Source: a virus. From it: DNA of 26,833 bases. The first letter of the stretch is position 1. Each line of letters begins with the position of its first letter. Under the pieces are notes generated by a model. It was not told the origin of the DNA. It saw only the letters and a list, made by a program, of their open reading frames with translations, and did not search any database. Positions 2,251 through 7,738 of this stretch are shown in pieces. The DNA lies in IMG/VR virus record IMGVR_UViG_3300047320_000070, positions 1-26,833 of that record; one strand, 5' to 3'. The position numbers and the translations under genes were made by a program.

Positions 2251-2744
2251 TGGTTTTCCCCTCGCGGAATAAGGCCGCGCCGCTCGAACGCCGGTCGTAA
2301 CTTCTCGTGCGTCGCCTGGCGCAGCTCTGCGATTGCTGGCCCGATCTTCGCTGCTGCGTTGTATGCGGTGCTTCGGCTTACTCCGCATTCGTCGGCGATG
2401 TGCTGCGCGGAAGGGCAGTAGTGCGCGCCGTAGACGAACTCACGCATCAGCATCAGGCGAATGACGGCCCGATTGCGCACGATGCCGCCGAACAGGTGTT
2501 CGAGCCGACCGATCGCCGCGTGTCGCTCTCCGTTCTCGCCGCCGTATTCGGCATCCAGGAGCGCTCGTTGATCGAGCGACGTATGCGACTCGATCACATC
2601 GAGGATCAGCCGCGCCTGCGCTCGTTTCTCGCTCGCGCTGAGCATCATTGCGCCAGTTTCGGCTGCGATGAACTCTCCTACTTTTGCGACTTTGACGCCA
2701 TCGGTCGCGCGCCACAAATATGCGAACGACAAGAGGCTTTCCAT
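2247..2744 (-). CDS. Phage HTH protein, possible late or early regulator
   Basis: 165 residues if started at the ATG at 2744. An ATG at 2846 in the same frame would add 34 residues and has a GAGAAG site. It was not preferred because it would bury the start inside the 79-residue gene upstream. A helix-turn-helix lies near residues 115-140 (AQHIADECGVSRSTAYNAAA). The central part is rich in acidic and aliphatic residues. It resembles small antiterminator or replication-control proteins encoded late in early operons of temperate phages, but the family is not certain. It overlaps the HNH gene by ATGA. Confidence 0.65.
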   Translation of the reverse strand: MESLLSFAYLWRATDGVKVAKVGEFIAAETGAMMLSASEKRAQARLILDVIESHTSLDQRALLDAEYGGENGERHAAIGRLEHLFGGIVRNRAVIRLMLMREFVYGAHYCPSAQHIADECGVSRSTAYNAAAKIGPAIAELRQATHEKLRPAFERRGLIPRGENQ

Positions 2745-2917
2745 GTCTCTAAACAGGCAAACTCGCTGCACCGCCCCGTCATTGGGCGCAGCTTGGCGCA
2801 AAGGGTGCTGCCTATCTTTCCGACCGTCCAAACACACTGTTTGCATGATTGTTCTTCTCGCACTAGGAGGATCAGCAATGGATCTTGATATTCGTGCTGG
2901 CGTAATGGTTTCGTCAT
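2678..2917 (-). CDS. Small Cys-rich phage protein
   Basis: 79 residues with a CxxC pair (SCKQCVW) followed by GSTLCAKLRP and TGRCSEFAC, a spacing of cysteines like the short zinc-ribbon-like proteins common in phage early regions. It begins 3 bases after the preceding stop, with an AGAAG ribosome site, and overlaps the HTH gene by 67 bases. The tight fit on the upstream side supports it. The overlap downstream is longer than usual for this operon, so the start of the next gene may be wrong. Function unknown. Confidence 0.5.
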   Translation of the reverse strand: MTKPLRQHEYQDPLLILLVREEQSCKQCVWTVGKIGSTLCAKLRPMTGRCSEFACLETWKASCRSHICGARPMASKSQK

Positions 2918-2920
2918 CAG

Positions 2921-3061
2921 CTACTTCTGTCGCGCCTCGGACAGCATCGACGCAATCATAAGAATGAAGTAGGAGAAGGTTAGGCCGAGCGCGAAATACG
3001 TTGACATATGCGGAGCGCATACGATCATGGCTAACGTCGCATACAACTCGGATCGTTTCAC
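2921..3061 (-). CDS. 46-residue putative membrane protein with GTG start
   Basis: The GTG overlaps the previous TGA (GTGA) and has GGAGG 5 bases upstream, the best ribosome site in the operon. The product runs MKRSELYATLAMIVCAPHMS and then a hydrophobic stretch to about residue 40, with two possible short membrane helices, ending SEARQK. No family recognised. The strong site and exact fit between neighbours make it likely to be translated. Confidence 0.6.
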   Translation of the reverse strand: MKRSELYATLAMIVCAPHMSTYFALGLTFSYFILMIASMLSEARQK

Positions 3062-3147
3062 GCTTCCTCCTTATGCTCGCGTTTCGGCGGATTCCATGAT
3101 CTCGCCATGACGTTGAAGAACAGCCACCAGTACAGGGCGGGACTCAT
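3058..3147 (-). CDS. 29-residue coupled ORF
   Basis: Starts MSPALYWWLFFNVMARSWNP and ends in a charged KREHKEEA tail. The ATG overlaps the stop of the upstream gene (ATGA) and its last codons contain the AAGGAGG site of the next gene. It may be a small membrane-associated peptide with an aromatic N-terminal segment, or a translated bridge that keeps ribosomes on the message. Confidence 0.5.
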   Translation of the reverse strand: MSPALYWWLFFNVMARSWNPPKREHKEEA

Positions 3148-3581
3148 TTTGGCTCCCACTGATTCATGGCGATCATCTGCATCCGGCGTTCATTTGCCAC
3201 TTTGATCGCGTGCTTTTCATCTGTGGCGAACACGGTTGATACGAGAACATCAGCGACCGCAACCCCTTGGAAGGCGCGGGCGTCGCTCCGCTTCCAGATA
3301 TATGATTGCTCCCCAATGCCGTATGCGCTCAGCGAGCGTGGCTCACATCTTTCCGCCGTGCCGTCGCGACGCATATACACAAGGTATTGCGTCATTCCTT
3401 GATTGATCTCGTCTGCTGCCGGATCAAGAGGCCACTCTGCGATTTCTGCCTCGTCATACTCTCCATCGGTCTTGTTTATTGCGTCGCAGACGATGCGGGC
3501 CTTTTCTTCGCTCGTGTACACGCCGACGACTCGATAATCAGAGTACGATCCCTTCTCGATAACCCATACGCTTTTGCTCAT
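3144..3581 (-). CDS. Hypothetical phage protein, DUF7336-like N-terminus
   Basis: 145 residues. The opening MSKSVWVIEKGSYSDYRVVG followed by VYTSEEKARIVCDAIN resembles small phage proteins of the DUF7336 type, in which a strand-rich start is followed by a SxEEKA helix. The middle is acidic (EYDEAEIAEWPLDPAADE). No catalytic motif is visible. ATGA overlaps on both sides place it firmly in the early operon. Family assignment is tentative. Confidence 0.75.
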   Translation of the reverse strand: MSKSVWVIEKGSYSDYRVVGVYTSEEKARIVCDAINKTDGEYDEAEIAEWPLDPAADEINQGMTQYLVYMRRDGTAERCEPRSLSAYGIGEQSYIWKRSDARAFQGVAVADVLVSTVFATDEKHAIKVANERRMQMIAMNQWEPK

Positions 3582-6651: not shown

Positions 6652-6834
6652 ATGACCGGTGCGCAAGCTGTCGCTGCAAATAGTGCCAATGTTTTGCCGG
6701 TGTTCGAGGGCGAGTTATCGCCTGACGCCTGGACTGACCACGAATTCATCAACGCGGCCTGCGCCGCCATCCCCGTTCACATGCGTCAGGAGGCGATTGC
6801 CGCGCTCCTGTCGATCGTCGGACGACCGCACTAA
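6652..6834 (+). CDS. 60-residue hypothetical protein
   Basis: Begins MTGAQAVAANSANVLPVFEG and ends IPVHMRQEAIAALLSIVGRP H. The ATG has AAAGGCGGG about 8 bases upstream. An in-frame TTG at 6613 lacks such a site. The second half is likely helical. It is the only protein gene between the repressor and the RNA region, behind an operator-controlled promoter, so it may be an early rightward control or lysogenic conversion gene. No family recognised. Confidence 0.6.
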   Translation: MTGAQAVAANSANVLPVFEGELSPDAWTDHEFINAACAAIPVHMRQEAIAALLSIVGRPH

Positions 6835-6851
6835 TACGCGCAAAGTTTTGG

Positions 6852-6888
6852 TTGACACAACTTGGACTGTTTTGATATGATTGTGTCA
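6852..6888 (+). promoter_or_regulatory. Near-consensus promoter inside an 8-bp inverted repeat
   Basis: TTGACA (6852-6857), an 18-base spacer and TATGAT (6876-6881) predict a start near 6888. TGACACAA (6853-6860) and TTGTGTCA (6881-6888) are perfect inverted copies that bracket the core promoter. The palindrome GTCACcGTGAC (6885-6895) follows at the start site. This looks like a strong but repressible promoter. Confidence 0.7.
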
Positions 6889-6982
6889 CCGTGACGTCAT
6901 TGCGACTTGGGTCGTATTCATCACCGGTTCCTTCTGCTGCAAAGCAGTTTCCGCTCCCCGTAAGGGTTGAGCGGCTTTTTAT
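6888..6982 (+). ncRNA. Candidate ~95-nt phage small RNA
   Basis: The predicted transcript runs from the 6852 promoter to the terminator at 6951-6982. It contains a CTGCT-GCAA-AGCAG hairpin (6935-6948) and the terminator hairpin. No ribosome-binding site is seen. A GTG-started open frame crosses the terminator but looks non-coding. The layout fits a trans-acting regulatory RNA. An attenuator leader for downstream RNA and tRNA is the main alternative. Confidence 0.5.
6951..6982 (+). terminator. Intrinsic terminator
   Basis: CCGCTC-CCC...GGG-TT-GAGCGG hairpin at 6951-6974 followed by CTTTTTATT. This ends the small-RNA unit and any message from the gene at 6652. Confidence 0.8.
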
Positions 6983-6988
6983 TCGGCG

Positions 6989-7020
6989 GCCGTCGCCTGA
7001 GAGATCATGCGGCGGCTTTT
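6989..7020 (+). terminator. Second, tandem terminator
   Basis: GCCGTCGC (6989-6996) pairs with GCGGCGGC (7009-7016), eight pairs including one G-T, around a 12-base loop and followed by TTTT. It lies 7 bases after the first terminator's T-run. Confidence 0.6.
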
Positions 7021-7037
7021 GCTTTATAGTTTCGCCT

Positions 7038-7320
7038 GGAGATCCCCGCTCCTGACTGCTGGAAAGACAGCGCTCTCACGCATGGCGGTTAAGGCGACGT
7101 GCGCTGGCAGACATGGAAACCCTTTGCGGTGAACCCATAGCCGATCGGAAACACAGGCCGATCCTTGTTAGCCGCCAGTCGTGAGAGTGAATGCGCAGGC
7201 TGATGCGCGAAAATTCGGGATAGCTATACGGGGACGCTTCCCTCCCGGCCAATCCTGGTAGCAAGCCGGAGATCAGCGCCGGCCACTCTCAACTTTTGCC
7301 ATGCCCGGCGCTCACGCGCG
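7038..7320 (+). ncRNA. Highly structured RNA region upstream of tRNA-Tyr
   Basis: No credible ORF on either strand. A long-range helix pairs CTCTCACG (7073-7080) with CGTGAGAG (7180-7187). It continues, after a 3x3 internal loop, as GGCGGTTAA (7084-7092) with TTAGCCGCC (7168-7176). Inside lies GATCGG/CCGATC (7143-7163). Local hairpins are GCTG-GAAAGA-CAGC (7058-7071), a bulged CTC(C)CGGC/GCCGGAG (7242-7271) and AGCGCCGG/CCGGCGCT (7275-7312). The loop of the last holds CACTCTCA (7284-7291), complementary to TGAGAGTG (7182-7189) of the long helix. This is either a pseudoknot or a switch. Position next to a tRNA recalls GOLLD and ROOL phage RNAs, but it is shorter and no homology is claimed. Confidence 0.5.
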
Positions 7321-7339
7321 GCTTATCAACGGGTGTTCA

Positions 7340-7428
7340 GGATGGGTAGACCGCTAAGGAGGCGGGGCAGACTGTAAATCTGTCGTCAAACAAGGGCCAT
7401 CTAGGATCGTTACCTAGTCCATCCACCA
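7340..7428 (+). tRNA. tRNA-Tyr (GTA), divergent, CCA encoded
   Basis: The acceptor stem GGATGGG/TCCATCC (one G-T pair) is followed by ACCA. The anticodon arm GCAGA-CTGTAAA-TCTGT gives GTA and matches the E. coli tRNA-Tyr arm almost exactly. The T-arm is CTAGG-ATCGTTA-CCTAG. A long variable region of about 17 bases fits class II tRNA-Tyr. Odd points: the D-stem CCGC/GCGG is shifted by two bases, and the T-loop has A54 and T58 instead of T54 and A58. It could still be functional. Confidence 0.85.
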
Positions 7429-7431
7429 AAC

Positions 7432-7453
7432 AAAAAGCCCGCATCGCGCGGGC
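7432..7453 (-). terminator. Terminator for the small leftward genes, abutting the tRNA
   Basis: On the minus strand GCCCGC-loop-GCGGGC (7437-7453) is followed by TTTTT (7436-7432). It ends the two small leftward genes 4 bases from the CCA of the tRNA. On the plus strand the hairpin has no T-run but may define the tRNA 3' trailer. Confidence 0.75.
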
Positions 7454-7458
7454 CTTAG

Positions 7459-7578
7459 TCACTCATCATCCGGATCATCCTCCGGTTCTTCGTCGTCCTC
7501 GCCATCTGTCTCGTTGTAGTAGGCGTCAGCCTCCTGATCGAGCCAGAAATCGTGACTGCACTTAAACCGCGCGTTCAC
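7459..7578 (-). CDS. 39-residue acidic protein, GTG start
   Basis: GGAGG stands 6 bases before the GTG. The product begins MNARFKCSHDFWLDQEADAY and ends in an almost wholly acidic tail of about 16 residues (ETDGEDDEEPEDDPDDE). Its start overlaps the preceding gene by 17 bases and its stop lies 5 bases before a terminator on the same strand. These features support a real gene despite its size. An acidic tail of this kind could mimic DNA or bind a basic partner. That is inference. Confidence 0.65.
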   Translation of the reverse strand: MNARFKCSHDFWLDQEADAYYNETDGEDDEEPEDDPDDE

Positions 7579-7738
7579 TGCGAGCCTCCAGTGCGTCCGA
7601 GAGGATTTGCAGCATGGCGCGCGCTTCGCCGATTGCGCATGCGCTCTCGATGGTGATGTGACCGGACTGCACCAGCTCGCGCAGCTTGCCGATCGTCTCG
7701 GCGGCTTGCTTCAGGACGTAATTTTCGTAGTTGCTCAT
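7562..7738 (-). CDS. 58-residue helical hypothetical protein
   Basis: Begins MSNYENYVLKQAAETIGKLR and continues as alternating charged and aliphatic residues, so it is likely all-helical. GGAG lies about 7 bases before the ATG at 7738. A strong promoter stands at 7766-7794. It is the first of two leftward genes between the tRNA and the late region, so it is transcribed against the rest of the right arm. This is typical of cargo genes expressed in a lysogen. No family recognised. Confidence 0.7.
   Translation of the reverse strand: MSNYENYVLKQAAETIGKLRELVQSGHITIESACAIGEARAMLQILSDALEARSERAV

Follow-up and report, generated by a model that had tools for sequence, protein, structure and literature searches.

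In the engineered tRNA scaffold, a recombinant RNA is put in place of the anticodon stem. Such a scaffold was used in PMC3753655. Among natural RNAs, GOLLD and ROOL are single RNAs, much larger than the one described here, that form homo-oligomers (PMC12286853). STnc100 is expressed in EHEC with support from Northern analysis (PMC5331693), and PasD, a prophage sRNA described as STnc100-related, has RIL-seq targets (PMC13192938).

The RNA considered here consists of an upstream module, D1, and a downstream module, E. It lies in the window, by which is meant the whole 26.8 kb phage contig that was analysed. The first-pass annotation had called for an Rfam covariance search and a covariation test; the latter supported the helices, while the former returned no family for E or D1 in the window at the gathering threshold, in positions 6840–7450 at E ≤ 10, or in 32 other loci. 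Weak matches to mir-489, rydB and isrG were set aside as chance. The covariance models of GOLLD and ROOL gave no match either, at the gathering threshold for the window and at E ≤ 10 for 6840–7450. The original description of a large RNA beside a tRNA, belonging to neither of these two classes, is therefore correct as to the classes, but the RNA is built from two modules and not from one large fold. The STnc100 model (RF02076) also had no match in the window; two of the 32 other loci (L235 and L237 only) contain one, at a distance of over 1 kb from E.

The locus and its surroundings

The window encodes an SU10-type portal and a Terminase_3 large subunit, for which the closest matches come from Microcystis and Sulfitobacter phages at ~59% identity. 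The structured stretch is placed after the early genes and before a tRNA-Tyr-like gene. From comparison with relatives, the limits of the RNA are about 7052–7291, slightly inside the earlier 7038–7320. The features are as follows.

6852–6881, + strand: predicted sigma-70-type promoter, TTGACA-18-TGnTATGAT, 11 of 12 consensus positions
6951–7024, + strand: two terminator-like hairpins in the leader, read by eye
6951–6980, + strand: leader hairpin 1, CCGCTCCCC-GTAA-GGGttGAGCGG-CTTTTT, by eye
about 6989–7020, + strand: leader hairpin 2, GCCGTCGC...GCGGCGGC-TTTT, by eye
7058–7071, + strand: hairpin P0, GCUG-GAAAGA-CAGC, directly 5' of strand A
7071–7080, + strand: strand A (CGCUCUCACG), the 5' partner of strand B
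7081–7179, + strand: upstream module D1, made of CAU (7081–7083), P4 (7084–7091/7169–7176), hypervariable insert 1 (7092–7168) and AGU (7177–7179)
7180–7189, + strand: strand B (CGUGAGAGUG), with A (7071–7080) or A' (7284–7291) as its partner
7190–7208, + strand: linker AAU and P2, a D-arm-like hairpin GCGC-AGGCUGAU-GCGC that covaries
7209–7264, + strand: insert 2, hypervariable and exchangeable from the comparison of inserts, in the anticodon-arm position
7265–7283, + strand: P3, a T-arm-like hairpin GCCGG-AGAUCAGCG-CCGGC, from covariation
7284–7291, + strand: strand A' (CACUCUCA), which forms the acceptor-like stem P1 with B and follows P3 with no linker
7340–7428, + strand: tRNA-Tyr-like gene with a GUA anticodon, from ARAGORN

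The promoter at 6852–6881 is the likely start of the transcript, and a promoter scan identified no second promoter-like site in 6780–7600. The same scan did not pick up the two leader hairpins; if these putative terminators work, they may place the RNA under antitermination. At the other end of the locus, the tRNA-Tyr-like gene has a non-standard T loop (AUCGUUA, compared to UUCRANY), and the tRNA model of Rfam fails to match it at thresholds as loose as E ≤ 10. Its product may be tRNA-like and not a working tRNA. No tmRNA was reported for the window by ARAGORN or Rfam.

The 17-pair long-range helix of the first-pass annotation is present as described and consists of two stacked helices, A:B (7071–7080/7180–7189) and P4 (7084–7091/7169–7176), with a conserved CAU/AGU internal loop between them. 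Module E spans 7182–7291 and has its kissing bases at 7199–7203 in the P2 loop and 7273–7277 in the P3 loop. The alternative pairing of 7182–7189 with 7284–7291, in eight of eight bases, had been given with exact coordinates; the TGAGAG motif had been placed at 7183–7188 and in fact lies one position earlier, at 7182–7187.

Covariation supports two competing helices

Folding energy was dropped as evidence for an RNA, the single sequence folding no better than expected by chance (z = −1.05; matched by 31 of 200 shuffles). Instead, the fold is judged to be real on account of covariation among relatives. For 21 loci, the state composed of A:B, P4, P2 and P3 is 96.6% paired compared to 87.3% when shuffled, and 12 pairs show changes on both sides; neither value was reached in any of 500 shuffles. 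Changes on both sides affect six of the eight P4 pairs. Stem P1 is fully (100%) paired in these 21 loci, with both-side changes in four of seven pairs, and the alternative state with stem P1 and the kiss between the P2 and P3 loops is 99.2% paired compared to 90.5% when shuffled, again with 12 double-changed pairs. Both A:B and P1 thus covary in one set of loci, in line with the earlier claim that the helices are mutually exclusive. Since the same letters of strand B (alignment columns 37 and 38) show covariation with A as well as with A', both of the exclusive helices, A:B and B:A', are conserved as judged from the alignment. Helices of this kind would correspond either to a switch or to a precursor and its product.

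The common layout of 24 loci may be written as (P0 hairpin)-A-CAU-P4-insert-P4'-AGY-B, where P0 is clear only in some; a GGAAAGA-type hairpin with altered stem letters is also found immediately before A in other loci. A D1-type domain was found for 23–24 of 250 E elements and is absent from most. Upstream complements of B exceeded the 99% permutation level in 31 of 239 elements, and 30 of these 31 cover at least 4 nt of stem P1. The complement of B in the window itself is at about the 0.8% level by permutation. Long A:B helices of 14–20 bp occur. The computed energies, before any credit for the kiss, favour A:B by a median of 3.0 kcal/mol (5.3 in the window). One locus with a long A:B helix, L095, has a Proteo-phage-1 RNA (RF03044) at 676–756, ~130 nt upstream of E.

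Module E belongs to a widespread family

The 250 distinct E elements are those among the matches listed in pattern scans of IMG/VR, so that their counts are not population frequencies, and they are related and hence not independent. In each scan either a single end or just the loops were fixed, and the remaining parts were recovered nearby in hundreds of stretches. In anatomy, the elements have a closing stem P1 of 7–9 bp, the 4-bp hairpin P2, an insert of 12–166 nt of unrelated sequence and the 5-bp hairpin P3 abutting P1. The variable pairs of stem P1 are 91–100% paired compared to ~46–50% when shuffled (most variable positions), with pairing dropping to 66% at the eighth pair and 46% at the ninth; P2 (4 bp) and P3 (5 bp) covary as well. 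A descriptor made from the stems only found 355 sites on E loci and none on reversed sequence. Among the 250 elements, G.U pairs and A.C mismatches occur at about 103 to 19. Since G.U is far more numerous than A.C, the functional molecule is taken to be the RNA of this strand.

The conservation of E as a true RNA element is nearly certain. The original view that the stretch is a structured RNA and not a gene also holds, as the fixed helices covary and no coding gene is required as an explanation. A coding gene in relatives was considered and rejected, for the ORFs annotated over E clash with fixed helices surrounding unrelated inserts of any length. The hypothetical proteins annotated antisense to E at L002 (3977–4093) and L004 (2200–2753) are probably not genes.

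The P2 loop AGGCUGAU is complementary to the P3 loop AGAUCAGC through GCUGA/UCAGC. The four combinations at one pair of this putative kiss were scanned via gapped patterns in which the stems were left free. G:C was found in at least 120 stretches, G:U in 65, A:U in 29 and A.C in 4, and 94 of the 98 stretches without G:C (65 + 29 + 4) passed an independent test of pairing in stems P1, P2 and P3. Since the compensatory G:C, G:U and A:U combinations are common, A.C is rare and nearly all of these stretches pass the independent stem test, the predicted kiss between the P2 and P3 loops is well supported.

The phages in which relatives of E were identified infect Klebsiella, E. coli (phage P1 among them), Pseudomonas, Burkholderia and others. 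With blastn against phages, positions 7187–7286 of the window matched an otherwise different Klebsiella phage, 6991, at 95% over 100 nt, and shorter terminal matches were obtained to E. coli, Burkholderia and Pseudomonas phages. The ends that these relatives have in common are GUGAAUGCGCAGGCUGAUGCGC ... GCCGGAGAUCAGCRCCGGCCAC or near variants of these, and the sequence that they enclose is unrelated. A blastn search of the whole region against E. coli genomes gave no match because the inserts differ, and the conserved ends are needed to reach the family. With a loose cut-off, a consensus query found 259 of 50,697 phage records, a few of them by chance. The mEp460 locus is matched at least in part by 1,824 of 5,426 complete E. 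coli genomes, and a strict pattern was found in the genomes of 16 species, mainly Enterobacterales, Pseudomonas, Burkholderiales and Xanthomonadales. Many matches to the short 5'-end pattern were chance and were removed by a paired descriptor. E-like elements were also seen in L221 and L232, contigs labelled as Phycisphaerales and Verrucomicrobiota MAGs, which are perhaps misbinned phage contigs.

Resemblance to tRNA

The arms of E follow the order and size of those in tRNA: an acceptor-like stem of 7–9 bp, a linker of 2–3 nt, a D-like arm of 4 bp with 8 nt in the loop, and a T-like arm of 5 bp with 9 nt in the loop. The T-like arm joins the acceptor-like stem without a linker, and the insert of 12–166 nt stands for the anticodon arm. 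This arrangement of ordered arms, with the T-like arm stacked and no linker, was found in the 250 elements. A contact between the D-like and T-like loops is indicated by the compensatory changes of the loops, the pairing being read from sequence, and E would have a tRNA-like three-dimensional shape. The body of E is not called a tRNA by ARAGORN or RF00005; the sole tRNA call within an E element is a tRNA-Pro nested in the insert of L105. The P3 loop has 9 nt and lacks the UUCRANY motif, and stem P1 is frequently 8–9 bp, not 7. Forward-strand T-arm motifs were found in 8 of 239 inserts compared to 0.66 expected.

An encoded N-CCA directly follows stem P1 in 58 of 250 elements, compared to a background of 9.4 with a maximum of 16. 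The other 192, among them the window copy, have no encoded N-CCA at the tRNA position. The link with phage tRNA genes suggested in the first-pass annotation was borne out: a tRNA gene is found no more than 1 kb away for 38 of 250 elements, compared to 3 of 569 control positions, and E shares its strand with 57 of the 59 tRNAs nearby. For about 85% of elements, the available sequence shows no recognisable tRNA within 1 kb. In a close relative of the window, L376 (80–330), E ends with CACUCUC-A-CCA exactly where the tRNA-Tyr-like gene of the window ends; L376 has no tRNA-Tyr gene, and its downstream sequence continues as the window does after that gene. The E. coli genome 2824 (L236, 2001–2175) has an mEp460-type upstream module followed by a tRNA-Arg, and not E, at the position where E would start. 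The same tRNA-Arg overlap was seen in two more E. coli genomes.

Exchange of inserts and tandem arrays

The same insert is present within unrelated flanks in 40 pairs of loci, and the same flanks surround unrelated inserts in five pairs. Re-used inserts are 85–100% identical between unrelated phages. The insert of the window and its counterpart in phage 6991, which sits over a different stem P1, are 93% identical, and a nearly identical copy of insert 2 is also carried by a K. oxytoca plasmid whose flanks differ. Conversely, L376 has the flanks of the window with both inserts, 1 and 2, unrelated. The conserved P2 and P3 arms would offer phage recombinases natural homology arms.

In phage P1 (L234, about 2420–3360), structured modules form a tandem array behind a tRNA-Asn and a tRNA-Thr, in the order of a T-arm-containing module closed by GGTAAGGGTA/TACCCTTACC, E, more modules, a second E and an STnc100-like element. 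T-arm-containing modules of phage P1 are closed by arms of the GGTAAGAGCA/TGCTCTTACC type. In Taipeivirus phages, E and STnc100 (RF02076) occur within one tRNA region. The modules upstream of E in L235, L237, L238, L239 and L002, from Klebsiella and E. coli phages, have the look of degenerate tRNAs with GGTAAGAGC/GCTCTTTCC arms, and modules closed in this way may be another uncatalogued RNA family.

Proposed mechanism and alternatives

The preferred reading, with a probability of about 0.5, is that E is a natural tRNA scaffold that presents exchangeable payload RNAs. Positions 7052–7291 would represent a phage noncoding RNA with two scaffolds that share one strand, B. In the 3' scaffold, E, the T-like P3 would be stacked on the acceptor-like P1, and its loop would kiss that of the D-like P2 in the manner of a tRNA elbow. 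The 5' scaffold, D1, would comprise the A:B helix and P4, the latter bearing a second exchangeable insert. During synthesis, B would presumably pair first with A. Later, or once cleavage frees E, B would pair with A' to give the tRNA-like fold; both the order of these events and their cause are proposals. With its tRNA-like ends, E may be processed and protected alongside the tRNAs of the same phage operon, and its payloads may diversify through recombination at the conserved P2 and P3 arms. The payloads would most likely be decoys or sponges for host factors, including tRNA-targeting defences, with an antisense action also conceivable. Any specific payload role is proposed with less confidence than the scaffold mechanism.

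It is possible, if rather doubtful, that E is a base-pairing regulatory sRNA of the STnc100/PasD kind, in which the hairpins stabilise the RNA and the insert is a seed for host or phage mRNAs, probably with Hfq. STnc100 has the layout of E and shares phage arrays with it, and there is precedent in the expression of STnc100 in EHEC (PMC5331693) and in the RIL-seq targets of PasD (PMC13192938). However, no terminator was found directly 3' of A' in the window, where such an sRNA would have a U-tract, and with inserts that are unrelated between close phages the targets would change constantly; the kissing loops and the encoded N-CCA indicate tRNA-like handling instead. E and D1 might also be processing or insulating spacers of tRNA operons, with competing helices that direct cuts by RNase III, E or P, to release the tRNAs, and inserts that are neutral filler. 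While the nearby tRNAs on the same strand, the presence of a tRNA where E would otherwise stand and the suitability of 14–20 bp A:B helices for RNase III are consistent with spacers, most elements have no nearby tRNA in the sequence at hand, and neutral filler would not recur intact at 85–100% identity across unrelated phages, which makes this explanation unlikely.

The competing helices also raise the prospect of a cis-acting two-state switch that would control the downstream phage operon as an attenuator or riboswitch. Two conserved exclusive helices of similar computed energy (a median difference of 3.0 kcal/mol), an upstream promoter and terminator-like hairpins read by eye would all suit a switch. 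Nevertheless, the downstream genes are wholly different among loci (tRNA, SSB, methyltransferase and others) with no constant gene class, A' in the window is associated with neither a terminator nor a ribosome-binding site, and just 23–24 of 250 E elements have a D1-type domain; a switch is considered quite improbable. Least probable is that the element acts as DNA, its hairpins forming in the single-stranded state at a site of recombination, packaging or replication. Inserts are indeed exchanged between conserved arms, but the ratio of G.U to A.C (about 103 to 19) and a kiss that is made through G:U (65) and rarely A.C (4) point to an RNA of one strand, as do the nearby tRNAs on that strand. 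A DNA-level element was rejected on the G.U/A.C asymmetry.

If the scaffold reading is true, phages have invented the tRNA-scaffold trick and use it for fast swapping of RNA payloads, and the question of why phages carry odd tRNA-like genes becomes testable in the P1/E. coli system. The structured RNA is in any case present in phage P1, virulent Klebsiella phages and E. coli prophages, apparently without an Rfam entry.

Comparison with known RNAs

A description of E was not found in the literature searched, which covered few subscription journals, so that an earlier account is possible. GOLLD and ROOL resemble E as structured, phage-borne RNAs near tRNA genes; they differ in being far larger and homo-oligomeric, and their covariance models match neither E nor D1. 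Proteo-phage-1 RNA (RF03044) is likewise a structured RNA of proteobacterial phages, but with another sequence and structure, and it occurs in one of 32 scanned E loci.

The closest agreement in helix layout is with STnc100, as found by comparing the structure line of the RF02076 model with E. STnc100 follows the layout of E with a closing stem ending in GGUG/CACC, a short GAAU linker, a 5-bp hairpin, a variable middle and a 5-bp hairpin contiguous with the closing stem, and both RNAs are found in the same phage arrays. In contrast, the loops of STnc100 differ and the GCUGA/UCAGC kiss is not recognised in them, there is an extra 3' hairpin, and no D1 partner is evident. A kissing pair of its own was considered for STnc100, but was unconvincing and is not claimed. 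As a result, the earlier suggestion of a possible new class is correct in that no Rfam family covers the RNA, but the RNA is not wholly isolated.

With tRNA and the tRNA-like domain of tmRNA, E has in common the order and size of the arms, the loop–loop contact and, in a quarter of the elements, N-CCA. It differs by the insert in place of the anticodon arm, the 9-nt T-like loop and the lack of a match to tRNA or tmRNA models, and its kiss would consist of 5–6 Watson-Crick pairs compared to the D/T-loop contacts of tRNA. The engineered tRNA scaffold is similar in that E would be a tRNA body bearing an arbitrary RNA at the anticodon-arm site; E is natural and has other elbow contacts, and any stabilising effect of E is hypothetical. 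More tentatively than for the scaffold itself, E and D1 may be viewed as a new phage RNA system in many temperate and virulent phages, with tRNA-shaped scaffolds, hypervariable payloads that are exchanged horizontally and a second payload scaffold coupled by a strand switch, that would amount to a fast-diversifying arsenal of anti-defence RNAs. E is best regarded as a new family, akin to phage RNAs of the STnc100-like and tRNA-like types, and there is a real chance that it represents a new kind of system.
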